In this document: piece by piece, positions 1-38,345 of the stretch | Layout: each line of letters begins with the position of its first letter | Numbering within the stretch: the stretch's first letter is position 1 | Notes under the pieces: generated by a model | Told to the model about the DNA's origin: nothing | Database searches by the model: none | Seen by the model: only the letters and a program-made list of their open reading frames with translations | NCBI GenBank assembly: GCA_951217055.1 | Contig: OX578277.1 | Span: 113,402,514 to 113,466,513, forward strand | Origin: Gerris lacustris | Lineage: Eukaryota > Arthropoda > Insecta > Hemiptera > Gerridae | Reading direction: 5' to 3' | Length of the DNA: 64,000 nucleotides | Program-made: the position numbers and the translations under genes

Positions 1-483
1 AGATATTTGTCAAACACCTAATTTTATGATTTTATGACTAAAGTCATAAAAAGTATAACAAAATTAGTATTTACGTACTATTTTTGTTTCTAATGAAAGA
101 CTTATTCAAACATTTTTTTAATGTCTTGAAACCCGAATTCTAACAAATCAGATCGGGACATTTTTTCACTGTAGTCACGGTTATACCGAATCAAAAAACT
201 TATTGTGAATTTTCTTTTTATTTTTTTACAAGGAAATGTTTTCCTTGCGCGTTGGTTTTTCCTTGATAATTAATAATCACAACTTCCTCTAGTTGCACAA
301 GCTTTCGTTTGCTTCGCCACATTTTTTGATAAACTATAAATTTATAGTCCAATAATGTGTGTTAAATTTTTAAAAAATGATTAATTTATTTATTGTTAAA
401 AGTAAAAGTATTTGAAATTATCTAATAGATAAAAATAATTTTTACTTGATACAATAAATATGTGAACTCATATGTAAGCTATT
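1..483. other. AT-rich flank, no gene seen
   Basis: No ORF, splice-supported exon or repeat structure is recognised here. If the four orphan cysteine exons at 3.4-8.3 kb share a signal-peptide exon, it is not in this stretch and would lie upstream of the window. Confidence 0.5.
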
Positions 484-1736
484 ATACATTTTATTGGAAA
501 TATGACCACTAATATGACATTAAAATAATACATATAAACCTATATTGGTGATGTTTCCAATAATATCACATTAAAATTATACATAATTCACCTACATTGG
601 TGATATTTCCAATAATATCACATTAAAATAATACATATAAACCTACATTGGCGATATTTCCAATAATATCACATTAAAATTATACATATAAACCTACATT
701 GGCGATATTTCCAATAATATCACATTAAAATTATACATAATTCATCTACATTGGTGATATTTCCAATAATATCACTTTTAAATTATACATATAAACCTAC
801 ATTGGCGATATTTCCAAATTTATCACATTAATATAATACATATAAACCTACATTGGTGATATTTCCAATAATATCACATTAAAATAATTCATATAAACCT
901 ATATTGGCGATATTTCCAATAATATTACATTAAAATAATACATATAACCCTACATTGGTGATATTTCCAATAATATTACATTAAAATTATACATATAAAC
1001 CTACATTGGCGATATTTCCAATAATACCACATTAAAATTATACATAATTCACCTACATTGGTGATATTTCCAATAATATCACATTAAAATTATACATAAT
1101 TCACCTACATTGGTGATATTTCCAATAATATCACATTAAAATTATACATAATTCACCTACATTGGTGATATTTCCAATAATATCACATTAAAATTACACA
1201 TAATTCACCTACATTGGTGATATTTCCAATAATATCACATTAAAATTATACATAATTCACCTACATTGGTGATATTTCCAATAATATCACTTTTAAATTA
1301 TACATATAAACCTACATTGGCGATATTTCCAATAATACCACATTAAAATTATACATAATTCACCTACATTGGTGATATTTCCAATAATATTACATTAAAA
1401 TTATACATATAAACCTACATTGGCGATATTTCCAATAATACCACATTAAAATTATACATAATTCACCTACATTGGTGATATTTCCAATAATATCACATTA
1501 AAATTATACATAATTCACCTACATTGGTGATATTTCCAATAATATCACATAAAAATAATAAATATACACCTATATTGGTGATATTTCCAATAATATTACA
1601 TTAAAATTATACATAATTCACCTACATTGGTGATTTTTCCAATATTATCACATTAAAAAAATACATATAAACCTATATTGGTGATATTTCCAATAATATC
1701 ACATTAAAATAATATTTATTACACACCTGCATTACC
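484..1736. repeat. 51-bp tandem satellite, about 24 copies
   Basis: A unit of about 51 bp is repeated with small changes. The core contains CCTACATTGG followed by GTGATATT-TCCAAT-AATATCAC. That last segment is an inverted repeat with 8-nt arms and a 6-nt loop, so every unit can form a small hairpin. Two spacer variants alternate irregularly (ACATATAAA and ACATAATTCA before CCTACATTGG), and GCGATATT sometimes replaces GTGATATT. No coding potential is visible. Confidence 0.93.
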
Positions 1737-2466
1737 AATGGGCTTTTTAATATTTAAATAGTGAAGAACCAATAATGTAGAATCTAGCGAAACATAAATT
1801 AAAACAAGACACTTTTAGGCCGAACTGTAACTCTAAGTAATTTTCTAAGACTGATTAATTTTTAATTAAATTAAATTTCCAATTTACATTAAGAAAAGTA
1901 AAATTTATTTGAAAACTAAATTATTTAATTTTGAAAGAACAAGGGAGTGAGATTAAATAGTTTAGAAAGAATCAATGAAAAGTACCTAAAATACTAGCGG
2001 ACAGGTGGTGCTACAAGCGAGCCGTGGCAACAAATTACACTAATTTCATCAGTAATCTATTTTAATAATAACGTGTAAGCAGCACTTGCTTTCACAAGTT
2101 TTGAGTACTTTTTGAATCTAAGGGTTTACACTTTGAGTTGTGGACATTCTATGAATAAGTTTTTTTCTTCAATGGATCTAAATTCTAAATGGTATAATTT
2201 CTACCCATTTAGTTCCAGGTTGTCTTTTTAGGCAAATTATTATAAGCCTTTGAAGCCTTCTAAATTGTTTGAGGAAGTCAGAAAAAATACTTGCTTAAGC
2301 AAGTTAAGTAGCTGGATTCTCATAGATGGCATTTATTAATGTATTTTTTAATGTTCTTTTATTATTATTATTTTTTTTATTTTTTTTTTTTCCAAAATTC
2401 TATTATTATTTTTGTTTTTATCAAGCTCAACTTAGTATATATGGGGCTCTTTCATAGAAGAACCTA
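1737..2466. other. Non-repetitive AT-rich sequence, no gene seen
   Basis: I searched this for a signal-peptide exon ending Cys-x6 before a GT donor, as in the two complete peptide genes, and saw none. The ATG-initiated ORF from 2339 is Phe/Tyr-rich translation of T-rich DNA and runs into the adjacent repeat. Confidence 0.5.
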
Positions 2467-3342
2467 TAGTCCAGAAGATAGAGTGCAAAAAGAGTCTGAC
2501 AAACATCAAGCTAGAATTTTGTGTATAAGTAAATCTTTTGGTAAGAGGGCTTGGGTGGCTCGGAGGCTAGAGAGCTCGCCTTGCGATAAGGCAAGTTAAG
2601 CAGCATCGAGCCGGCTCAGAAGGTGACGGCAGCTCTGAGTTCGATTCCCGGACCAGGCCCCCCACTCTTTGTCCACCCAGCATTGTTTAAACAAATGGGA
2701 AGCTCCTCGAAACCATGATGAAGACACTCCTGGTTGTAATACAACTAGGAGGGGAGTCATGGTTGACGACCATATCTTCACACGACCGTGTGAAGATTTC
2801 GGTCCCTAACCCGGGTTTGATGGGCCCACCTAAGTGGCCTGCATCTTCGGGTGTTAAAAGCCCCCCGGAATAATTAAAAAAAAAAAAAAAAAATCTTTTG
2901 GTGCCTTTTAAGAATACGTGGCTGGCTAAGTTCGTCTGCGGGACATAACTTGGCATTAGGCATTTGAAAGAAACAAACTGGTAGAGAGCGGCCATGTCCC
3001 GCCCTTTTTGGTGGACAATGTGATTTCCATGATCCTTAGTACGAAATTAGTTAGTAGACCAAAAATCAAGTTGATGATGGTTTGCAACTTAATAGGTTAG
3101 TTAGTCAAATATTACTCCAAATCAAAGAGGCCTCCTATTAAGTGACAAACTAACATCAACTTGATTCTTGGTCTACTAACTAATTTTGTACTCAGGATCA
3201 TGACAAAACATTTTCCACTAAAAAGGGCAGGACATGGCCACTCTACATCGGTTTGTTTTTTCAATTATCCGACCCCATCACAAGGCACCAAAAGATTAAC
3301 TTGATGTAAGTCACTCTTTTTTGCATGCTATCTCCTGGACTA
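2467..3342. mobile_element. Foldback/MITE family A, copy 1 (split by a SINE)
   Basis: A non-coding palindromic element starts TAGTCCAGAAGATAG and ends CTATCTCCTGGACTA. Its long inverted arms carry the shared segments for ACATCAAGCTAGAATTTTG and GTGGACAATGTGATTTTCAT. The left arm is interrupted by the SINE at 2543-2890. The ends and the apparent TA flanks fit a Tc1/mariner-type MITE, which is inference because no transposase is encoded. Five more copies occur in the window. Confidence 0.85.
2543..2890 (+). mobile_element. SINE with 5S-rRNA-like and tRNA B-box-like head
   Basis: The insertion is bounded by a perfect target-site duplication AAATCTTTTGGT (2531-2542 and 2891-2902) and ends in a poly(A) run, as expected for LINE-mobilised retroposition. 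The head contains AAGTTAAGCAGCATCGAGCC, which closely matches the box A region of 5S rRNA. It is followed by GAGTTCGATTCCCGG, a good RNA polymerase III B box. The related copy at 13860 also retains the 5S box C-like GGATGGGTGAC. It inserted into foldback element A. A pure tRNA-derived SINE is the alternative reading. Confidence 0.85.
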
Positions 3343-3400
3343 CTATTAATGTTTAGTATTTAGTGTTGTTTAATTGATATGTTTGGATATTTGGGTTCAG

Positions 3401-3559
3401 TGCTCTTCGGGTAGGGATTGCTGCAGCATGGCATGCTGTTCCAACCTGACCAGCAATGCACATACATGTGGAGAGAACTCTCGTTCGACCATAAAACCCA
3501 ACTCTCTTAACAACAACCGCACCCGAGCTCCAGCAATCGACCCAGACTGTGTTCCCTGA
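3401..3559 (+). CDS. Cysteine-rich knottin-like peptide, terminal exon copy 1
   Basis: This 3′-terminal exon encodes 52 residues and a stop. It opens directly after the acceptor GGGTTCAG in phase 0 on a Cys codon. Cysteines follow C-x5-CC-x3-CC-x9-C-x26-C and the chain ends CVP. The same framework is completed by a signal-peptide exon in the two full genes at 11.4 and 23.4 kb. The conserved block (CSSGRDCCSMACCS) precedes a variable polar linker. About 60 nt of intron before the exon (TTAATTGATATGTTTGGATA) is shared with copies 2-4. Function is unknown; knottin folds occur in toxins, defence peptides and signalling peptides. No exon 1 for this copy is visible, so it may use one upstream of the window or be a relic. 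Confidence 0.75.
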   Translation, partial: CSSGRDCCSMACCSNLTSNAHTCGENSRSTIKPNSLNNNRTRAPAIDPDCVP

Positions 3560-3627
3560 ATCATTCCTTTCCTTACAATAATGCTTAATACCTCCAAAAA
3601 CTGTTTACAAATTATTGTTAATATTTA

Positions 3628-3633
3628 AATAAA
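3628..3633 (+). terminator. Poly(A) signal of cysteine exon copy 1
   Basis: AATAAA lies 69 nt after the stop codon and is followed by a TTTATTTATTGAGTATG-type T/G-rich stretch. The equivalent signal sits at nearly the same distance after copies 2, 3 and 4. Confidence 0.7.
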
Positions 3634-3690
3634 TGTTTTAATTTATTTATTGAGTATGCTTATATTTTTAGTGCAGTTATTTTAATCATA

Positions 3691-4300
3691 ATAAACAGGT
3701 CAAGTGTGTGCTAGTCAGCACACAACGAGGGTCCGTAGGCCACACTGTATAGTTTAAGTAGTACCCTATTGATGGTGTTTTTTAAAATGATAAAAAGCCT
3801 TCTTTGAACTATCCTATGGGCCTGATATTCTCAAAACACATAAACAAACTTCTGATAAAGTATTTATTTGCCACTGAACCGGACTACAACCATATAAATA
3901 CATTGAAAAGACCATAGTTATAAAGAAACGTATTTTGTCAATAAAAAATTAAATAATTTTTTTTTTCGAAATTTCCAAAAAGTGGCATCTTTACTTTTGG
4001 CCAAAGAATGTTCAGGAATTTTTTCAGACTTTTTGCACTTCACATAAGCGAGATAGAAGGGGGCACACGTTTCGCCCTTAAGTTTTTTTACCCTAATTTT
4101 TTTTTTAAGTCGCTATATTTTTAAAATATGTGGGTAGGTACAAGACCGGGTTTTGAGAATATCAGACCCTTAGAATAGTTCAAAGTAAGCTCTTTAGGAT
4201 TTAAAAAAAACACTGTTTACACACTTTACAGTTAAACACTATATAGTGTGGCCTACGGACCCTCGCTGTGTGCTGACTAGCACACACTTGACCTGTTTAT
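3691..4300. mobile_element. 610-bp inverted-repeat (foldback) element
   Basis: The ends ATAAACAGGTCAAGTGTGTG and its complement close a 610-bp element. The terminal arms are long (about 165 bp, including GGGTCCGTAGGCCACACT and GATATTCTCAAAAC). There is no coding capacity. It lies between cysteine exons 1 and 2. Confidence 0.85.
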
Positions 4301-4644
4301 TATAATAACAATTGCATATAAAGTTTGTTCCAACCCCGTTATTTGTAGCGTCCTTTGCATTTGCATCATCCCGTGGATTTGTGGATCGTACAAAAATCTT
4401 TTAGGAAAGTTGTGACTGTAATTCGTACTGTATAAAAACAAACAAAACAGGAAACCTAACAGATTGGAAACCTTCTTGTTGTTGTTATTCGTGAGATTTG
4501 ACATAACTGGGCATGTTGTACAAACTAGAAATGGGTATTGTCTTAGCACCCGACTGTACTGACTTCGGCAATACTCGGAAGTTCCGACTTTAAACGAAGT
4601 GAAGCTTTCAGTTTCTCCCGTGTTCATGACTGCTTGGTCGACCT
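4301..4644 (-). mobile_element. Partial copy of the 592-bp TIR element H
   Basis: This matches the element at 56294-56885 in opposite orientation and keeps one terminal repeat (CATGACTGCTTGGTCGACCT at 4625-4644). The other end is cut at the boundary of the 3691-4300 element. A 116-codon minus-strand ORF is shared by both copies but contains no recognisable domain, so I treat it as chance. Confidence 0.75.
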
Positions 4645-4775
4645 TTAGTCATAGTTATGAAGTGGTACCACAAATTATCAGTCTATATAACTAATTATTT
4701 AAATGGGGCAAAGAAACTAAGCAATATTTAGTATTTATAGTTGTTTAATTGATATGTTTGGATATTTGGGTTCAG

Positions 4776-4931
4776 TGTTCTTCGGGTAGCGATTGCTGCA
4801 GCATGACTTGCTGTTCCAACCTGATCGGCAATTCAAAAACTTGTGGAGAATCCTCCTATTCAACCATGAACCCGAACACACCTGACATCACGCGCAACCG
4901 AACTTCAATCGACCCTGGCTGTGTTCCCTGA
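4776..4931 (+). CDS. Cysteine-rich knottin-like peptide, terminal exon copy 2
   Basis: The exon encodes 51 residues plus a stop and begins after GGGTTCAG on a Cys codon in phase 0. The framework is C-x5-CC-x3-CC-x9-C-x25-C, ending CVP. Relative to copy 1 there are several replacements inside the cysteine block (for example SGSD for SGRD) and many in the linker, while every Cys is kept. That is the pattern expected for a constrained secreted peptide scaffold. No separate exon 1 is visible between copies 1 and 2, where transposons fill the space. It is an alternative terminal exon, an independent gene with an undetected first exon, or a relic. Confidence 0.75.
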   Translation, partial: CSSGSDCCSMTCCSNLIGNSKTCGESSYSTMNPNTPDITRNRTSIDPGCVP

Positions 4932-5001
4932 ATTATTCTTTTCCTTAAAATAATACTTAATACATCAAAAAACTGTTTAAAAAATTATCTTTCAATATTA
5001 A

Positions 5002-5007
5002 AATAAA
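5002..5007 (+). terminator. Poly(A) signal of cysteine exon copy 2
   Basis: AATAAA lies 71 nt after the stop, followed by a TATTGTGTATGTTT GT-rich element that is conserved after copy 3. Confidence 0.7.
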
Positions 5008-5477
5008 TGTTATTTATTTATTGTGTATGTTTATATTTTTCTATCTTTTTACGCTATATATTTAGAATAGGTACAGTAATAACCCGACTACGTAAAATTC
5101 TGAGTCACTTAACACCTGAAACTGCTGCTAAAATTGATAAGGGGTTCGATTCTGTACTTTGAAACCTCCCTTTTCATGTGATTATACACTTACATCAAAA
5201 TTAGATAAGAAGATGGGGCGAAAAATGGGTCGATACCCCCAAAACACAATTTTTCCAAACTTTAGGCGATTTTCTGAGAAAACTGTATGTATAGGAGAAA
5301 TTTCGACTTCAGGTACGGAGTCAGTGACCCCGAAAACATAAGGTTCTGCTAAAATTTTTTTGGAGCCTGAAAATTGTTAAATTTTGCTGTACAGTGTTAT
5401 TTATATGAGACAAAGAAACCAATAAATATTTTGAATTTATAGTTTTTTAATGGATATGTTTGGATATTTGGTGTCAG

Positions 5478-5651
5478 TGTTCTTCGAGTGGGGATTGCTG
5501 CTCTATGGTTTGCTGTTCCAACCCGACCTCCAATGCAAATACATGTGGAGAATCCTCCCGTCCACCCTTACATACGGGCGCACCTGATCATGATCATGGC
5601 CATCACCGCAGAACTATAGCACCTCGCATCGAACCTGGCTGTGTTCCCTGA
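5478..5651 (+). CDS. Cysteine-rich knottin-like peptide, terminal exon copy 3
   Basis: The exon encodes 57 residues plus a stop, starting after TGGTGTCAG on a Cys codon in phase 0. The framework is C-x5-CC-x3-CC-x9-C-x31-C, ending GCVP. The cysteine half is nearly identical in DNA to copy 4. The linker is different and unusually rich in His and Asp (DHDHGHHRR). The open frame continues a little upstream of the acceptor, but the ORF before it is intron sequence shared by all copies. No recognised signal-peptide exon lies nearby. Confidence 0.75.
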   Translation, partial: CSSSGDCCSMVCCSNPTSNANTCGESSRPPLHTGAPDHDHGHHRRTIAPRIEPGCVP

Positions 5652-5720
5652 ATTATTCTTTTCCTTACAATAATACTTAATACATCAAAAAACTGTTTAA
5701 AAATTATATTTCAATATTAA

Positions 5721-5726
5721 AATAAA
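5721..5726 (+). terminator. Poly(A) signal of cysteine exon copy 3
   Basis: AATAAA lies 70 nt after the stop, in the same context as copy 2. Confidence 0.7.
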
Positions 5727-5946
5727 TGTTGTTATTTATTTATTGTGTATGTTTATATTTTTCTATCTTTTTACGCTATATATTTAGAATACAGTAATAA
5801 CCCGACTTACGTTATCACGTACTTACGTAAATTCTGAGTTACGTATAGTTGTAACACCCGATGCTGCTAAAAGTGATAAGGGGTTCGATTCAAAACCTCC
5901 CTTTTAATGTGATTATACTCTTACATCAAAATTAGATAACAAGATG

Positions 5947-6350
5947 CACTGCGCAGCCTGTCAACGTGAATCTACAACTTAATTTGTAGTGAAATAACAG
6001 AAAAATTGATAATTAGTGAGTGTCTAAGTGTATCTAAGTGCATACCCCGACTTCCGTAATTTTGACTTACTTACTTTTGAAATACTTCGCGGTTCAACCT
6101 AATTACGTATGTCCGCGGTATCACTGTATACTACTAACCCATAAAAACAAAAATTTTATTATGAAACCATGATCCCTATAGTCCAGGCAAATTAGTAAAC
6201 AAAACAGCCAATGGATTAACTAAATGATAAAGTTTTTAAACTTTGTGAAAACACTCTTAAGGGGTGTAGAAGTAAGAAACAGTAAAGTTCCCCTTTCCTT
6301 AAAGTCCAAAATTTACTTATTTTTACTTTTTACGCAATACGGTAGAAAAA
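5947..6350. other. No gene recognised
   Basis: AT-rich sequence following the duplicated block. A short ORF at 6224-6412 starts here and runs into repeat E; no domain or splice support is visible. Confidence 0.5.
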
Positions 6351-6535
6351 ACAGGAGAATAGTTATTTATGTAACTAGGCAGCAAAATAGAATATTACTG
6401 ACGAGTGATTAGATTAGCCTCCTAGCCGAAGGCGAGGACAGGCAATGAATAAACGAGGCAGAAATGTTTCCTTTGCTGCCTTGTTGCATACAATATTTTA
6501 TCTACTTGCGGCAGAAAAATGAAGCTGCTAAAATG
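6351..6535 (+). repeat. Interspersed repeat E, copy 1
   Basis: Contains GAGCCGAAGGCGAGGACAGG and CGAGGCAGAAATGTTTCC, shared with copies at 23.7, 24.4 and 39.8 kb. It is non-coding. Confidence 0.75.
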
Positions 6536-6972
6536 TTATCTTCATATAACACAGTTAATAACTTTGTGTCATATTAATAAAGATAATAACGTATGTATTT
6601 AACTAAAATTAATGTTCAAATAAGAAACTTGGGAATAATAACAATAAGTGAAAAGCAAACTCAATCTATAACAACAAAATACAAAACACATGTTTATAAC
6701 ACACATAACTTCTGAATGAATAATGCACGAAATATAAAATATTTATTTATATTTTTACTAAAAAATTAATAAAAGTGTTAAAGATATCTTCTATATTGCT
6801 TAAAAGAAAAGAAGTAACTAGGATACATCAAGTAAAGTAGCTAGTCTCATCTAGAATGACTTCAACAATACAAATAATATGGATGTTCAATGTTTACATG
6901 ACGCTACAGTATAATAGCCAGTGACTCTACTATTTTTTTTTAATTAAAGATCTACTAATAAAAAAAAAAAAA
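6536..6972. other. No gene recognised
   Basis: AT-rich, with a poly(A) run just before the truncated element A copy. No exon with the peptide-gene signature was found. Confidence 0.5.
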
Positions 6973-7389
6973 AACCGGTGGTGAGCGGAAATGTCCCGCC
7001 CTTTTTGGTTTAGTAATTTTGAATACGAAATTAGTTAGTAGACCAAAAATCTGGTTAATGGTAGTTTGTAACTTAATAGTTTAGTTAGTCAAATATTACT
7101 CTAAATCAAAGAGGTCTCCTATTAAGTGACAAACTAACATCAACTTGATTCTTGGCACTACTAACTAATTTTATACTCAGGATCATGAAAATCACATTGT
7201 CCACCAAAATGGGCGGGATATGGTCGCTCTCCACCGGTTTGTTTTTTTCAAACACCTATTGCCAAGCTATGCCCCGCAGACGAACTAAGCAGACCACATA
7301 TTCTTAAAAGGTACCAAAAGATTTACTTGTACATGAAATTCTAGCTTGATGTTAGTCAGACACTTTTTTGCACGCTATCTTCTGGACTA
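6973..7389. mobile_element. Foldback element A, copy 2 (left end truncated)
   Basis: Begins inside the left arm at CCGGTGGTGAGCGG, directly after a poly(A) run, and ends CTATCTTCTGGACTA. The outer part of the left arm is missing. Confidence 0.8.
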
Positions 7390-7742
7390 ACAGTAATTTG
7401 GTTAAAAAACCATTATATTTGTTTTACAATTAGGTGACATACCAAGTCGATAACCTCTCGCTATACCTATCATTCATAATCACTACGATGTTGTATTTTA
7501 TTTTTCAGTCGTTAATAGTTATTTATGTTGCAAAAACTATTATTTATTTATTACATTTTTTTTTTACTTGGGAAATTTAATTTATTTGATTTATATTAGA
7601 TTTTGAAAATTTCCTTTGTGGTGGGAAAATTATAATGGTTGATGCCATTATAGAATTTGTTCAGTGATCTTGAGTCTGTATTTGTATTTACTCCATTTGT
7701 CCAACTTAATAACTATATTAACTGCTTTGAAGATTAAGCTTC

Positions 7743-7864
7743 TATCACAATTGTTGTTTTTGACAGATTTTTTTGGGTGTTGAATTAATAAAAACTCAAA
7801 ACTAGTTTTGAGTTTTTATTAATTCAACACCCAAAAAAATCTGTCAAAAACAACAATTGTGATA
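7743..7864. repeat. Perfect 122-bp palindrome (61-bp arms)
   Basis: The two halves are exact reverse complements with no spacer, centred on ACTAGT. A 20-bp direct repeat, TTTGAAGATTAAGCTTCTAT, occurs on both sides (near 7727 and 7900), suggesting that the palindrome arose by insertion or by a repair event with local duplication. Confidence 0.93.
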
Positions 7865-8177
7865 CTAAGTAAAGAAGGTGTTAATTAAGAACGTCATTTG
7901 AAGATTAAGCTTCTATTTATATTGTTTTCTTTGGTGATGACAAAATCAAACTAAGAATTGTAGCTGATATATTATGACCACTTAAGGCTGGGTTCGAATT
8001 AACTTTCTTCCTTTTGTCATTGTTATGTTCTATTGTTGTATGTGCTACTAGCGCTACCTAGTAGAGAACTTCAAAACTAAAGTAATAATTTACTCTCATT
8101 AATAAAATTTTTCATTGGAATAAGTTTTGTATTGAAAAATAGATTTTTAATTGATATGTTTGGATATTTGGTGTCAG

Positions 8178-8336
8178 TGTTCTTCAAGTGGGGATTGCTG
8201 CTCTATGGTTTGCTGTTCCAACCCGACCTCCAATGCAAATACATGTGGAGAATCCGCCCACCATCGCCATCGTCGCAGCCAAACGACGGCTTTGACTGGT
8301 CCTCCAATCAAAGTCAACCCTGGCTGTGTTCCCTGA
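8178..8336 (+). CDS. Cysteine-rich knottin-like peptide, terminal exon copy 4
   Basis: The exon encodes 52 residues plus a stop, beginning after TGGTGTCAG in phase 0 on a Cys codon. The framework is C-x5-CC-x3-CC-x9-C-x26-C, ending GCVP. The first roughly 75 nt differ from copy 3 by only about one base, as do the preceding 30 nt of intron and the last codons. The linker between is unrelated in sequence (AHHRHRRSQTTA here). No exon 1 is visible between copy 3 and this copy. Confidence 0.75.
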   Translation, partial: CSSSGDCCSMVCCSNPTSNANTCGESAHHRHRRSQTTALTGPPIKVNPGCVP

Positions 8337-11181: not shown

Positions 11182-11365
11182 ATGTGTGTGCATGCGTATT
11201 TTGTTAATTAAACGCTTTATGGAGTCAGTGTGTAATTACAATTTTTATGCATGGAAATTACCATATAACTGTCCCAGTATAGCGTTAAATAATCAAGAAC
11301 ACGTTGATGTAAGTCAGTTACTGTTTAGATATCCAAGGGACTTGATTGAAGCAGTAAATTTAGAA

Positions 11366-11467
11366 ATGTTTAATGTAAAAGTTTTCTGTTTTTTGTTAAT
11401 TGTTTACACTGTCAGTAATTCATTGTTTGGATCTGCAGCTCAATCATGTAAACAAGATACCGAACCG
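11366..11467 (+). CDS. Knottin-like peptide gene 5, exon 1 (signal peptide)
   Basis: Thirty-four codons run from ATG 11366 to the phase-0 donor CCG|GTAATG at 11467/11468. The start MFNVKVFCFLLIVYTVSNSL is a classic signal peptide: a short basic N-region, then a hydrophobic core, with likely cleavage near Gly22-Gln26. One mature cysteine (Cys28) is followed by six residues ending in Pro. The downstream cysteine exon at 13548 begins in phase 0 on a Cys, giving C-x6-C at the junction. An unrelated minus-strand exon at 23449-23321 ends with the same Cys-x6-Pro and a GTAATT donor, which strongly supports the call. The predicted precursor is about 91 residues, secreted. I chose this ATG because the upstream frame is TA-repeat translation. 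Confidence 0.82.
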
Positions 11468-11789: not shown

Positions 11790-12930
11790 CAGTTGACTGC
11801 TTTTACAAGCCATTATTGTCTAATTTGTTTAATTGTTTCCCCGTTTTTTTAATCAGTCAAAATAGTCCAGGAGATAGCGTGCAAAATAGTGTCTGACTAA
11901 CATCAAGGTAGAATTTTATATACAAGTCAATCTTTTAGCGCCTTTTAAGAATATGTGGTCGACTAAGTTTGTCTGCGGGACATATCTTGTCAATAGGCGT
12001 TTGAAATAAACAAACAGGTGGAGAGCGGCCATGTCTCACCAATTATGGTGGACAATGTGATTTTCATGATCCTGAGTACAGAATTAGTTAGTAGACCAAA
12101 AATCAAGTTGATGTTAGTTTGTCCGTTGACAGGTGATCACGTTGATTTTTAGTAATATTTGAATAACTAACCTATCAAGTGTGAAAATAACATCGACTTG
12201 AGTTTTGGTCTACTAACTAATTCTGTACTCAGGATCATGAAAATTCGGTCTCAGACTAATTCATGAAAATGACTGTCCACCATAATTGGCGAGACATGGC
12301 CGCTCTTCACCGGTTTGTTTTGTACTCCGCCTATTGCCAAGCTATGTCCCACAGACGAACTTAGCCGACCACATATTCTTAAAAGGCGCTAAAAGATTGA
12401 CTTGTATACAAAATTCTAGCTTGATGTTAGTCAGACACTTTTTTGCACGCTATCTCCTGGACTATAATTGTTTTGATTTATTACATGAATTGCATCATTT
12501 TAGCAAAAGTTAAAGAACGCAGACAAGTTTAATCTGGGGGCTATCTGCAGGTTACTTTCGATAAACTATACAAATTTTATACAACTCAAATAAGTACTTT
12601 TGAAGCTTTAGGGGAAAATGAATGTATGTTTGTGCGATTGTGGGAGAGAAACAAATGAGCGCAGAAGGTTGAAACTTATATGCGACCAATAATGAGCTAA
12701 TTATGATCTATCATACAAATTTCATTAAAATCGGACGTCTAATTTATAAAATGTGTTGGTTCGTAAAAATGGAGTGACAGACCGACAGACAGACACGGAA
12801 AATAAAATGTTCCCTGATGTCTGAAACGGATTTCTGTCGTGGAAGTTTTGAAATTGGAGACATAAATAATTTTCGTTCTTGAGAACGATCACATAGCTTC
12901 CGTTATCTTCGGTAAGCTCAGAAGAAATAA
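11790..12930 (-). repeat. Interspersed repeat B, copy in the intron of gene 5 (split)
   Basis: Begins with the reverse complement of family B's 3′ part (CTGCTTTTACAAGCCATTAT) and ends at CTTCGGTAAGCTCAGAAG, the hairpin-bearing 5′ end. Foldback A (11863-12464) is inserted in it, and the 12933 mariner-like element abuts its end. It contains the family's GACAGACAGACA run. Confidence 0.85.
11863..12464. mobile_element. Foldback element A, copy 3 (complete)
   Basis: A full copy from TAGTCCAGGAGATAGCGTGC to its complement, with about 250-300-bp inverted arms. It is nested in repeat B, and comparison with uninterrupted B copies shows a clean insertion with TA at both edges. Confidence 0.88.
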
Positions 12931-12932
12931 TA

Positions 12933-13502
12933 CAGGGTGGAGCGCGGCAGACGTATGAATTTGAAGAGAGGATTGCTCCCTTCATATCGGTCCTAGACGG
13001 TTGAGAGTAGGGTCGTTTGAAAGAGGGGGACGGGAAGTTTGTTCCACGTTTCAGCAGGACGGGGCCACAGCCCACAGCAAGGGTTTGCGTAAACTTTTTG
13101 CAAGACGGATTTCCCGGGCGTCTCATCTCTTTAAGAGGCGATTTAAACTGGCCAGCAAGATCACCTGATTTGGCTTCTTGTGATTTTTTTCTGTGGAGAT
13201 ACCTTAAATCCTTGGTGTACAGCGATCGTCCCAGAACCCTGGAAGCCCTCAAGAACAACATTGCGAGCCAAAATTGCCAAAATTCCTGTGGAAATGTTCG
13301 CAAGAGTGCACAAAAACTTTGAAAAAAGGCTTAATCAGTGTTTGGAGTGTGAGGGGAACCACTTATACGATACTTTGTTTAAATCTAGGTAAATTTAAAT
13401 TTCCCATGTTATTTAATCAGGAAAAAAATTTAAAAAAAAGTTATTTTGTAACATTCTGTGTTGTATTATATTAAATTTATACGTCTGCCGCGCTCCACCC
13501 TG
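12933..13502 (+). mobile_element. Tc1/mariner-like transposon, internally deleted
   Basis: Terminal inverted repeats of about 30 bp start CAGGGTGGAGCGCGGCAGAC, and TA duplications lie at 12931-12932 and 13503-13504. At 570 bp it is far shorter than an autonomous element and keeps only the C-terminal part of a transposase. It lies in the gene 5 intron and ends 45 bp before the exon 2 acceptor. Confidence 0.88.
13046..13392 (+). pseudogene. DDE transposase C-terminal remnant (two frameshifts)
   Basis: In three successive frames the sequence reads TFQQDGATAH, then NWPARSPDLASCDFFLWRYL with the LISLRGDL lead-in, then IAKIPVEMFARVHKNFEKRL. These are typical of a Tc1/mariner-superfamily DDE transposase (QQDGATAH first and SPDL-CDFFLW second Asp regions). 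At least two frameshifts and the lost N-terminal half make it inactive. A 192-codon ORF on the opposite strand (13303-12725) is antisense to it and not a gene. Confidence 0.85.
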
Positions 13503-13547
13503 TATAAGAATACATATAATTCTAATTAATGATTATTTGGATATTAG

Positions 13548-13721
13548 TGCTCGTCTAGCCGGGACTGCTGCTCGGTAGCTTGCTGCTCCGGAGTGACTTC
13601 CGACGCATTGACCTGCGGGGAATCTATAATCTTACGAACACCGCTCCCGGACTTTAGCAACTCCACCTCGTCAGCCGAAGACCAATCTTCAAATCAAGAT
13701 GAATCCAACTGTGTACCTTAA
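13548..13721 (+). CDS. Knottin-like peptide gene 5, exon 2 (cysteine exon)
   Basis: Fifty-seven codons and a TAA follow the acceptor GGATATTAG in phase 0. Cysteines follow C-x5-CC-x3-CC-x9-C-x31-C, ending NCVP. The block CSSSRDCCSVACCS is clearly homologous to the upstream tandem exons, while the linker is Ser/Asp/Glu-rich and acidic. With exon 1, the eight mature cysteines are C-x6-C-x5-CC-x3-CC-x9-C-x31-C. Six of these fit an inhibitor-cystine-knot pattern, with one extra pair; the pairing is inference. The intron is 2,080 bp, nearly all transposon. A toxin-like, antimicrobial or signalling role is possible; the sequence does not decide. Confidence 0.82.
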   Translation, partial: CSSSRDCCSVACCSGVTSDALTCGESIILRTPLPDFSNSTSSAEDQSSNQDESNCVP

Positions 13722-22166: not shown

Positions 22167-22370
22167 TTACTGGCAGTCATCAATGAACTGAGAGGTTCGT
22201 TGGCGCAGGATCAAGTCTCTAAACAGACGAGAAGTCATGTGCTTAGTAAAGAGGCGGGACTGACGGACAGATGAAGTTAGTAAGTCGATACCTTTATCTG
22301 CACACTGCTTCGCGCTTGTAGTCAAGTCTGTGCAGCAAACCAGCGAGCAGCAATCCAGGTGAGTCAAGCA
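22167..22370 (-). CDS. Knottin-like peptide gene 6, exon 2 (cysteine exon)
   Basis: On the minus strand, 67 codons and a stop follow the acceptor GTGTTTAAG in phase 0, opening on Cys. The framework is C-x5-CC-x3-CC-x9-C-x42-C, ending CQ. The block CLTHLDCCSLVCCTDLTTSA is a distant paralogue of the plus-strand exons: identical spacing but few identical residues apart from Cys and DCCS. Its linker is the longest of the set and basic (several Arg), lacking the CVP end. The exon 1 partner lies 950 bp upstream on this strand. No AATAAA is seen before foldback A starts 62 bp downstream, so the original 3′ UTR may have been disrupted. Confidence 0.8.
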   Translation of the reverse strand, partial: CLTHLDCCSLVCCTDLTTSAKQCADKGIDLLTSSVRQSRLFTKHMTSRLFRDLILRQRTSQFIDDCQ

Positions 22371-23320: not shown

Positions 23321-23449
23321 CGGTTTTCCATCATTGCTGCAAGTTTGAGTAAATTTTTCTGAATTTACCGGACCTCTTGTAACTTGTAAGGAAATGACTT
23401 TGGTTAACACAAAACCAATTATAAACAAATGTAAGGTTAGTTTCGTCAT
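23321..23449 (-). CDS. Knottin-like peptide gene 6, exon 1 (signal peptide)
   Basis: On the minus strand, 43 codons from ATG 23449 end at the phase-0 donor CCG|GTAATT. MTKLTLHLFIIGFVLTKVIS forms a signal peptide, followed by about 16 residues that may be a short propeptide, then the first mature Cys (residue 37), six residues and the junction Pro. This ending matches exon 1 of gene 5 in Cys spacing, final Pro codon and donor, although the sequences are otherwise unrelated. A two-codon upstream ORF (ATGCAATGA) overlaps the start codon and could lower initiation. A TATA-rich stretch lies near 23587-23605. The predicted precursor is about 110 residues. Confidence 0.8.
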
Positions 23450-31330: not shown

Positions 31331-31610
31331 AAATTTTTAAGTTTTAGGTAGTATTCATACTACGAAAAGATTAAATTTTACTTTAAATCAAATTAATTTG
31401 TATCGGTAACGACAGAGAAAAATCATTCTCCAGTGTAGCTCAGTTGGTAAGAGCGCCTGTAACGGATATGTAGGAGGCCCTTGGTTCAAGTCCTGGTGCT
31501 GGGGTCTATTTTTCTCTGAATGTCTCCCGTAGTTAATGATAATTATAATTTGATTTAAAGTAAAATTTAATATTCCCGTAGTATGAATACTACCTAAAAC
31601 TTAAAAATTT
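31331..31610. mobile_element. Foldback element enclosing a tRNA-like sequence
   Basis: Arms of about 64 bp (AAATTTTTAAGTTTTAGGTA to ...ACTTTAAATCAAATT and the near-complement) surround the tRNA-like segment at 31429-31503. An inner pair GACAGAGAAAAAT/ATTTTTCTCTG also pairs. Nothing else is coded. Confidence 0.75.
31429..31503 (+). tRNA. tRNA-like sequence (probable tRNA-derived element)
   Basis: A seven-pair acceptor stem can form, and the A box is canonical (TAGCTCAGTTGG), as is the B box (GGTTCAAGTCC). The anticodon arm CTGTA/TGTAG encloses a loop with GGA at the anticodon place, but position 33 is C instead of U and the T stem has a mismatch. I read it as a tRNA-derived repeat or pseudogene, not a working tRNA. 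Confidence 0.5.
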
Positions 31611-32955: not shown

Positions 32956-34290
32956 TTAGCTTTTATCATTTCCTAGCTTATTAACAGCGTATAAGTAAAC
33001 AACAAGAGATATCAAGTCATGTTATTTCATTAGTATTCTATTAATATAAGTTAAATTAATTTGAAATTAAATTTAATATTCATTATAATCAGATGACTGA
33101 TCATATTTTTAACTTTTTTTTCTGAAAAAAAAAAATAAATTTATAATTGTATATTTTTGCTCCGATAAGGCTAATTTTGATTAAATATAATTTAGATTAA
33201 GTGTCTTATATTTTTAATGGATTACAAGTTATGTTTTATCTTTAATTCGATTAAACCCGGCAGCTTTTGATGAAAAAATCAGGATACTTTTAGACGGTTA
33301 GAAACTTTTCTTTTATCAACTTTGGGTTTTCATGAAACTTTTAATAATTAACGTGTTTGTAAGGAGTTGAAATGTAAGTTCTGAGGAGTTCGGTCAAGTT
33401 TTGAGTTTGTTATAAAGAATTTGAGCGATGTAAGAGAAGTTCCGTACGAGTGTTTTGAGTCGATAGTTTTCACAGAGGTTTTTCTATTTTAGAGAAAAGC
33501 CGAGATTTCCAAACTGAGGATGAAAAACTCTCGAACCTTCTAATTCCCAGGTTGTTTTTTTTTACTTTCCCATCGTTGCCAACTGCACAAAGTGAAAACT
33601 CGGTCGGTCAAGAGAAAAGTAGGGAGAGGGAAAGCTTTCCCTCGGTCCTATTCCTTCTCTTTTTTCGTGGGCATTTTCCTCTCAGAATGTCATCGATCCG
33701 TGGCCGAACTCCGTGGCGTCATTTCATCACCCGTGAGAATAGAGAACGTATCAGACTTAATACCCAATAACTTGGGTGTTCTCGTTCCGTCAGCTGGAAG
33801 GCCGTCTCAAAGCCGCTTTCTTCATTTCAACCACCATTATTAGTTTTGTTACCCGGTATGAAATAAAAAGAGAATTTTCCGACAACAGGAAAATCGTACC
33901 GTTTACTTCCACATTTCACGAAAATTCCTTAAAAAATATACGTCAATAATAAGGAGTTTTTTCCAGGTGAAAATTCCTGTTAAATTCCAACTTTTTGAAG
34001 TAAAACTTCTATTGCCGTGGTCAAGAAAAAATTGGGCTGGATGAAACGAAGTTTGTGTTTCAAGACTCGTCCAAGTGATAGATTTTTTATCAACTCCCGG
34101 CTTAAGTCGGCAATGTTGTTTTCATGTTTGTTTTTCATTATTCCCTAAAACATTATGAAAATATTTTATTAATTAAACTTATGTTTGTTTGAGAAGTTAT
34201 CTGATTGCGGTGGCATTGTAAACTCTTATTTATAATTTAAATCAAATTATAATTATTATTCACTACGGGAAACAGACAGTGAAAAATACA
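32956..34290. other. No gene recognised; single-copy looking
   Basis: Two overlapping ORFs (33552-33770 and 33592-33843) lie in moderately GC-rich sequence, with no domain, signal peptide or family match. Lack of repeats suggests host single-copy DNA, possibly UTR or intron. Confidence 0.35.
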
Positions 34291-34367
34291 CTCCAGCGCC
34301 GGGATTTGAACCACGGGTCTCCTGTATTTCCAGTACAGATGCTCTTGCCAACTAAGCTACGCAGGAG
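34291..34367 (-). tRNA. tRNA-like sequence, second copy of the family
   Basis: On the minus strand it has A box TAGCTTAGTTGG, a perfect five-pair anticodon stem CTGTA/TACAG with loop CTGGAAA (GGA at the anticodon place), and B box GGTTCAAATCC. The T stem pairs poorly. Flanks resemble those of the 31429 copy (CAGTGAAAAAT, TTATAATTTGATTTAAA), so both belong to one tRNA-derived repeat family. Confidence 0.5.
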
Positions 34368-36375: not shown

Positions 36376-36740
36376 AGGGCAGTTGACTCTTCTAACGGCA
36401 GTTGACCTCTAACCATCTCTAACCACCTTAAATCACCTCTAACCACCTCTAATCACCTCTTACCCCCCTCCAACTATCTCTAACTAACTCTAACACCCTC
36501 AAACCATCTCTAACCACCTCTAACCACCTCCAACCATCTCTAAACATCTCTGTACATCTCTAATCGCCTCTAACCACCTCCAACCATCTCTAACAATCTC
36601 AAACTCCTCTAACTACCTCCTACCATCTCTAACCATCTCTAACCACCTTTACCATCTCTAACCATCTCTAACCACCTCTAACTACCTTCAACCATCTCTA
36701 ACTATCTCTAACCACCTTTACCATCTCTAATCACCAATTG
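36376..36740. repeat. 10-bp-based minisatellite, block 1
   Basis: Degenerate repeats of CTCTAACCAC / CTCTAACCAT, more diverged than block 2. Confidence 0.88.
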
Positions 36741-37404: not shown

Positions 37405-38230
37405 ACCTCTAACAACCTCCAACCATCTCAAACCACCTCTAACCACCTCCAACCACCACTAACCATCTCTAACCACCTCTAACCACCTCCAACCATCTCA
37501 AACCACCTCTAACCACCTCCAACCATCTCAAACCACCTCTAACCACCTCCAACCACCTCCAACCATCTCAAACCACCTCTAACAACCTCCAACCATCTCA
37601 AACCACCTCCAACCACCACTAACCATCTCAAACCACCTCTAACCACCTCCAACCATCTCAAACCACCTCTTACCACCTCCAACCACCTCCAACCATCTCA
37701 AACCACCTCTAACCACCTCCAACCATCTCAAACCACCTCTAACCACCTCTAATCACCTCCAACCATCTCAAACCACCTCTAACCACCTCCAACCATCTCA
37801 AACCACCTCTAACCACCTCCAACCACCTCTAACCACCTCCAACCATCTCAAACCACCTCTAACCACCTCCAACCACCTCCAACCATCTCAAACTACTTCT
37901 AACCACCTCCAACCATCTCAAACCACCTCTAAGCACCTCTAACCACCTCCAACCATCTCAAACCACCTCTAACCACCTCCAACCATCTCAAACCACCTCT
38001 AAACACCTCCAACCACCTCTAACCACCTCCAACCATCTCAAACCACCTCTAACCACCTCCAACCACCTCCAACCATCACAAACCACTTCTAACCACCTCC
38101 AACCATCTCAAACCACCTCTAAGCACCTCTAACCACCTCCAACCATCTCAAACCACCTCTAACCACCTCCAACCATCTCAAACCACCTCTAAACACCTCC
38201 AACCATCTCCAGCCATTTCTAGCCACCTCT
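37405..38230. repeat. 10-bp-based minisatellite, block 2, with higher-order units
   Basis: About 80 decamers of AACCACCTCT, AACCACCTCC and AACCATCTCA, arranged mostly as a 30-bp unit of those three in order. Longer blocks of about 120-190 bp also recur (for example ACTTCTAACC and AAGCACCTCT positions). Confidence 0.95.
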
Positions 38231-38231
38231 A

Positions 38232-38345
38232 ACACTAACAGTAAGGTTAAGCATGCGTGGTCACATCTTGGAGGAGTGACCTGGGTTTATCTCGGACTGC
38301 CCCCCCCCCTCACGGTGTCCACCAAGCATCGCCATTTATATACTT
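38232..38345 (+). mobile_element. SINE fragment of the 5S-like family
   Basis: AGGTTAAGCATGCGTGGTC, CTTGGAGGAGTGACCTGGGT and GTGTCCACCAAGCATCGCC parallel the 13860 and 2543 copies in order. It is decayed and contains a poly(C) run. Confidence 0.55.

Follow-up and report, generated by a model that had tools for sequence, protein, structure and literature searches.

Families of cysteine-rich secreted peptides are commonly attributed to whole-gene duplication. In the honeybee, the genes for apamin and mast cell degranulating (MCD) peptide are reported to have one 3' exon in common. Alternative use of duplicated homologous C-terminal exons is described for serpin-1 of Manduca sexta and of Pteromalus puparum (PpSerpin-1), and these reports give, for PpSerpin-1, 21 alternative exons, alternative regions of 44-50 amino acids (aa), and isoforms recruited to venom (PMC10513286, PMC12758981). 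In the excerpted account of house spider venom genes, 30 alternative-last-exon events (28.3%) are counted, and one locus with inhibitor cystine knot (ICK) homology has four transcripts and two predicted proteins, only one of which was distinguished in venom (PMC6700725). Here we analyzed a window of 64,000 nucleotides (nt) from the 937-Mb genome of the water strider Gerris lacustris (contig OX578277.1, here C2, positions 113402514-113466513), which contains a tandem array of four knottin-like terminal exons, c1 to c4. We propose that these exons probably belong to a single gene, gene A, in which one first exon (exon A) is followed by four alternative last exons, an organization like that of serpin-1 applied to knottin-like peptides.

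The likeness to serpin-1 lies in duplicated homologous C-terminal exons that would be used alternatively within one gene, so that its many products would vary in a functional region. The proposed gene A differs from serpin-1 in that the alternative exon encodes the whole mature peptide save an N-terminal stretch with the first cysteine, the constant part being the leader and that stretch; no Pfam match to a serpin domain was found among the six terminal exons of the locus (c1 to c4 and two more in the window). The honeybee apamin and MCD peptide genes likewise concern small cysteine-rich peptides and tandem units sharing an exon, but as a mirror image: the common exon is the 3' exon there and would be the 5' exon here. 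Alternative last exons, if used as proposed, would also liken the locus to the house spider genes, although tandem homologous mature exons behind one leader are not described in the excerpts of that work.

All four exons lie on the forward strand, at 3401-3559 (c1, 52 aa and a stop), 4776-4931 (c2, 51 aa and a stop), 5478-5651 (c3, 57 aa and a stop), and 8178-8336 (c4, 52 aa and a stop). Each is immediately preceded by CAG and, translated from the acceptor, opens in phase 0 on a cysteine and follows the pattern C-x5-CC-x3-CC-x9-C-x(n)-C-V-P-stop over 51-57 residues. An earlier note on this DNA had described four phase-0, Cys-first exons behind an AG acceptor, with this cysteine pattern, a stop, an AATAAA about 70 nt further on, and a common intron end of about 60 nt. 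The positions proved correct; AATAAA starts 62-70 nt past the stop in all four copies, and the intron ends match between copies over 39-81 nt (51/56 for c1/c2, 69/81 for c2/c3, and 37/39 for c3/c4). A six-frame motif scan of the window returned c1 to c4, a fifth exon at 13548 on the plus strand, a more distant sixth at 22370 on the minus strand, and nothing more. Nine positions are invariant across these six terminal exons, and seven of them are cysteines.

For a first exon, we scanned for an ATG, a hydrophobic start, Cys-x4-8, and a phase-0 GT[AG] donor, the strict form being Cys-x6 followed by GTAA. Seven candidates were obtained in the window, only two of which, the first exons of the neighboring genes B and C, had Cys-x6 before GTAA. 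The sequence was then extended by 100 kb upstream and 40 kb downstream of the window, to 204 kb in total. Exon A lies at -1433 to -1353 (C2:113401080-113401160), 1.4 kb beyond the window start and on the same strand as c1 to c4. It encodes MLDKLVTLFLLLEAVSQSLQCTPDGQQ, a short hydrophobic leader serving as a predicted signal peptide, one Cys, and six residues, and ends in phase 0 at a GTAATG donor, whose six bases are identical to those at the start of the gene B donor. Exon A is the only strict-form exon within 100 kb upstream and has no further copy within the 204 kb, and no terminal exon was found between it and c1. The distances from its donor to the acceptors of c1, c2, c3, and c4 are 4753, 6128, 6830, and 9530 nt, respectively. 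Over both strands of the 204 kb, the strict form matched three times (exon A and the first exons of B and C); 100 Markov controls had 0.46 matches on average and never more than 2. Each of the three is on the correct strand and 5' of terminal exons.

Exon A and gene B are further connected by a block of their 5' untranslated regions (5'UTRs), at -1489 to -1466 and at 11310-11333, respectively, both on the plus strand, which is identical at 23 of 24 nt and lies at an equal distance from the ATG (blastn E value of 8e-5 in the 204 kb). With up to two mismatches, the 16-nt core of this block occurs within the 204 kb at the A and B places alone, and an equally good 5'UTR match was obtained in 13 of 40,000 draws of random ATG pairs. 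With exon A located 5' of the window, positions 1-3400 (+) would be the 3' part of a long intron of gene A. Within this proposed intron, at 506-1714, a 52-nt unit is repeated about 23 times.

The earlier note had seen no signal-peptide exons amid the four copies and had predicted an exon outside the window with Cys-x6 before GTAA. Strict and relaxed scans of the gaps between c1 and c4 found no signal-peptide exon of the form seen in B and C, and the predicted exon appeared on extending the sequence 5' of base 1, so that its reading, one upstream exon serving four terminal exons, is supported at the level of sequence. The locus has the layout by which an alternative-last-exon array can be recognized in DNA: tandem homologous terminal exons each with an acceptor, a stop, and a poly(A) signal, a single upstream exon that fits them, and, by the scans, no first exon private to any copy.

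Under the proposed mechanism, one promoter at exon A would drive a primary transcript of up to about 10 kb. Exon A would supply the 5'UTR, the signal peptide, and the first cysteine, and each of c1 to c4 would supply cysteines two to eight, with a variable loop between the seventh and the eighth, together with a stop and a poly(A) signal of its own. Exon A would be joined in phase 0 to one of the four acceptors, the transcript would end at the poly(A) site of the chosen exon, and at every junction six residues would separate the first cysteine from the second, as predicted also for genes B and C. The output would be one of four eight-cysteine peptides, presumably secreted and folded, which would differ most in the loop between cysteines seven and eight. 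In this reading, the array grew as terminal exons alone were copied in tandem, and short conversion-like exchange later reshuffled the exons.

Several observations weigh against this organization. When decay without constraint was simulated, all frames and cysteines were kept in 0.2-4.5% of runs, depending on the divergence assumed, which favors the proposed organization; because the value reached 4.5% at the shallowest divergence tried, recently dead copies may nevertheless be present among the four. In the 26-codon cysteine block, the pairs show no common direction: the nonsynonymous rate (dN) is lower than the synonymous rate (dS) for the three pairs that include c1 and for c3/c4 (0 vs. 0.061), exceeds it for c2/c3 (0.238 vs. 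0.167), and is about equal to it for c2/c4 (0.238 vs. 0.246). The acceptors of c1 to c4, judged by eye, lack a strong pyrimidine tract. The peptide of exon A resembles that of gene B in form alone, the homology being carried by the 5'UTR block. Moreover, the looser scan (C-x4-8, any GT[AG]) gave 22 candidates on the plus strand of the 204 kb, of which 14 precede the window, and 9 on the minus strand, and two candidates are closer to c1 than exon A is. One of them, at -917 to -765, has Cys-x6 before GTAGAC and lies in an interspersed repeat that has 25 more matches within the 204 kb; the other, at -573 to -478, has Cys-x5 and GTGTTA, with two partial matches elsewhere.

The alternative that survives best, which we consider unlikely but worth keeping in mind, is that only one or some of c1 to c4 are used, most simply c1 as the nearest, and that the rest are recent duplicates not yet decayed or donors for conversion. 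The neutral retention of up to 4.5% fits such a history, as does the cysteine block of c3 and c4, whose identity at 77 of 78 nt would also be expected from recent copying. However, none of the four copies has lost its acceptor, frame, cysteines, stop, or AATAAA, although the linkers have diverged to 40-71% identity over the six c1 to c4 pairs and differ in length by whole codons. The cysteine codons also argue for use of the copies. In the first 78 nt of c1 to c4, 22 columns are variable, but none of the 12 columns at the first and second positions of Cys codons (P = 0.013); when the fifth exon is added, 39 columns are variable and these 12 are still unchanged (P = 9e-5).

It appears improbable that the four copies are separate genes whose private first exons have a form missed by the scans. 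Genes B and C pair one first exon with one terminal exon, and a one-to-one history might hence be taken as the default of the family. Against this, c2 and c3 are 546 nt apart, about two thirds of that stretch being duplicated exon flank, and the relaxed scan, made with no cysteine requirement, gave 0, 1, and 0 candidates in the c1-c2, c2-c3, and c3-c4 gaps, the sole candidate sitting in the 3' untranslated region of c2 and lacking the Cys-x6 spacing. It is least probable of all, and hard to credit, that c1 to c4 are spliced from another upstream exon (a looser candidate or one more than 100 kb away), exon A being a chance match or a relic: a chance strict match is expected 0.46 times per 204 kb over both strands, though only about 0.01 times on one strand in the 10 kb before c1, and the looser scan gave 13 other plus-strand candidates 5' of the window, but exon A has its 5'UTR block in common with gene B and the nearest rival Cys-x6 candidate belongs to a common repeat.

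Self-comparison of the window shows how the four exons multiplied. The unit around c2 (4695-5215, +) is 79% identical to 5397-5946 around c3, and c2 and c3 with their flanks are tandem copies with a step of 702 nt. The duplicated unit comprises the acceptor, the exon, the poly(A) signal, and downstream DNA, and does not include a first exon; c1 and c4 retain shorter flanks. Because only the exon for the mature peptide was duplicated, the copies must either be chosen as alternative last exons or die. The longer steps contain insertions. Most of the additional distance from c1 to c2 is due to an inverted-repeat element at 3679-4312 (arms at 3679-3837 and 4150-4312), and between c3 and c4 self-comparison revealed a repeat at 6964-7389 as well as a hairpin at 7743-7864, a perfect 122-nt palindrome.

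The relationships among the copies change along their length. Diagnostic two-against-two sites from -43 to +121 of the acceptor pair c1 with c2 and c3 with c4 in 19 of 21 cases, whereas all nine flank sites (-64 to -58 and +235 to +309) group c2 with c3 and c1 with c4; the linker sites in this analysis depend on the alignment. Short conversion-like exchange between copies is the simplest reading of this mosaic. The loop between the seventh and eighth cysteines is the variable part of the peptide, and linkers are least alike even in the pairs grouped by the exon (45/63 for c1/c2 and 29/68 for c3/c4, the latter beside its nearly identical cysteine block; for c3/c4, 27/48 with 51 gap columns in the multiple alignment). 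Positive selection was considered as an explanation of the c2/c3 comparison, in which the coding part matches at 97 of 141 positions and the flanks at 322 of 352, and was rejected because conversion-like exchange accounts for at least part of the coding divergence.

A search of 5.8 billion proteins with the six-exon alignment gave six candidates, none at E ≤ 1, and a search of solved structures gave none at E ≤ 10; eight pattern matches in viral contigs were obtained, and none was confirmed. Among the best candidates scored in the G. lacustris genome, c3 retrieved nothing beyond the window's five plus-strand exons, and the gene B exon retrieved the same five and, on another contig, one weak match interrupted by a stop (E value of 0.72). 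The invariant core, GAYTGYTGY-N9-TGYTGY, has 95 matches in the genome, against 34 for the reversed pattern, and six of the 95 are the window exons. Of the 89 others, 41 were examined in context (27 in given loci and 14 in 12 chosen stretches), and none had the family cysteine frame behind an AG. The family was seen in this genome at the window locus only, the remaining 48 of the 89 matches being known as 24-mers only. On the minus strand of contig C4 (26967862-26998221), 18 core matches are spread over 30 kb at intervals of 1.0-2.8 kb, and the two examined are in Cys/Gly-rich open frames; this cluster is possibly a simple repeat or an array encoding Cys-Gly-rich proteins.

Conotoxins of framework XI, in the I1 superfamily, have the cysteine order C-C-CC-CC-C-C according to the excerpted source (PMC4278219). 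The peptides predicted here would have the same order if exon A is spliced as proposed and its first cysteine is counted. Scanned as exons alone, and so without the first cysteine, c1 to c4 scored 11.4-12.3 bits against Pfam PF17557 (Conotoxin_I2; E values of 0.19-0.36, cut-off of 27 bits), and the other two terminal exons did not match it. We claim no membership in PF17557 because the scores are far under the cut-off. The locus differs from the conotoxins in its very long loop before the last cysteine, 25-31 residues in c1 to c4 and the fifth exon and 42 in the sixth, and the likeness is likely to reflect convergence. An AlphaFold2 model of c1 made with the six-exon alignment (mean predicted local distance difference test score of 48 and predicted template modeling score of 0.16) covers a piece without the first cysteine and is too poor to use for the fold.

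The neighboring genes have one terminal exon each. The first exon of gene B (11366-11467, +) has a signal peptide, Cys-x6, and a GTAATG donor, and its terminal exon, the fifth of the motif scan, is at 13548-13721 (+), where no AATAAA was found within 200 nt of the stop. The first exon of gene C (23321-23449, -) has a signal peptide, Cys-x6, and a GTAATT donor, and its terminal exon, the sixth, is at 22167-22370 (-). The locus would therefore hold three leader exons and six terminal exons, with A predicted to serve four, B one, and C, on the minus strand, one. An element at 12930-13505 in the gene B intron has 33-nt inverted ends that match at 97%. By eye, it resembles a broken mariner-type element.

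Two tRNA-Ser (GGA) genes are predicted at 31428-31506 (+) and 34290-34367 (-), in opposite orientation and about 2.8 kb apart, and both match the Rfam tRNA family. The ten-base repeat CCACCTCTAA (equivalent to TTAGAGGTGG) was observed at three of the four contig ends examined (the two C2 ends and the C3 start) and was absent from the C1 start. Ten-base units resembling this chromosome-end repeat form degenerate arrays at 36405-36735 and 37405-38233, and by their sequence we regard them as interstitial telomere-like blocks about 4.3 Mb from the contig end.

Taking these results together, we lean toward viewing gene A as a single-promoter library of disulfide-rich peptides, in which one leader would feed four interchangeable whole-peptide exons and the array would renew itself by duplication and conversion of terminal exons while the 5' regulatory exon stays single. 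If this is true, the choice of last exon and poly(A) site would set which peptide is made, and the mixture of peptides could come under the control of RNA processing rather than of gene copy number. The array is a small, clean natural test of the survival and diversification of duplicated exons, and of whether splicing can set peptide repertoires, with genes B and C as an adjoining one-to-one control.

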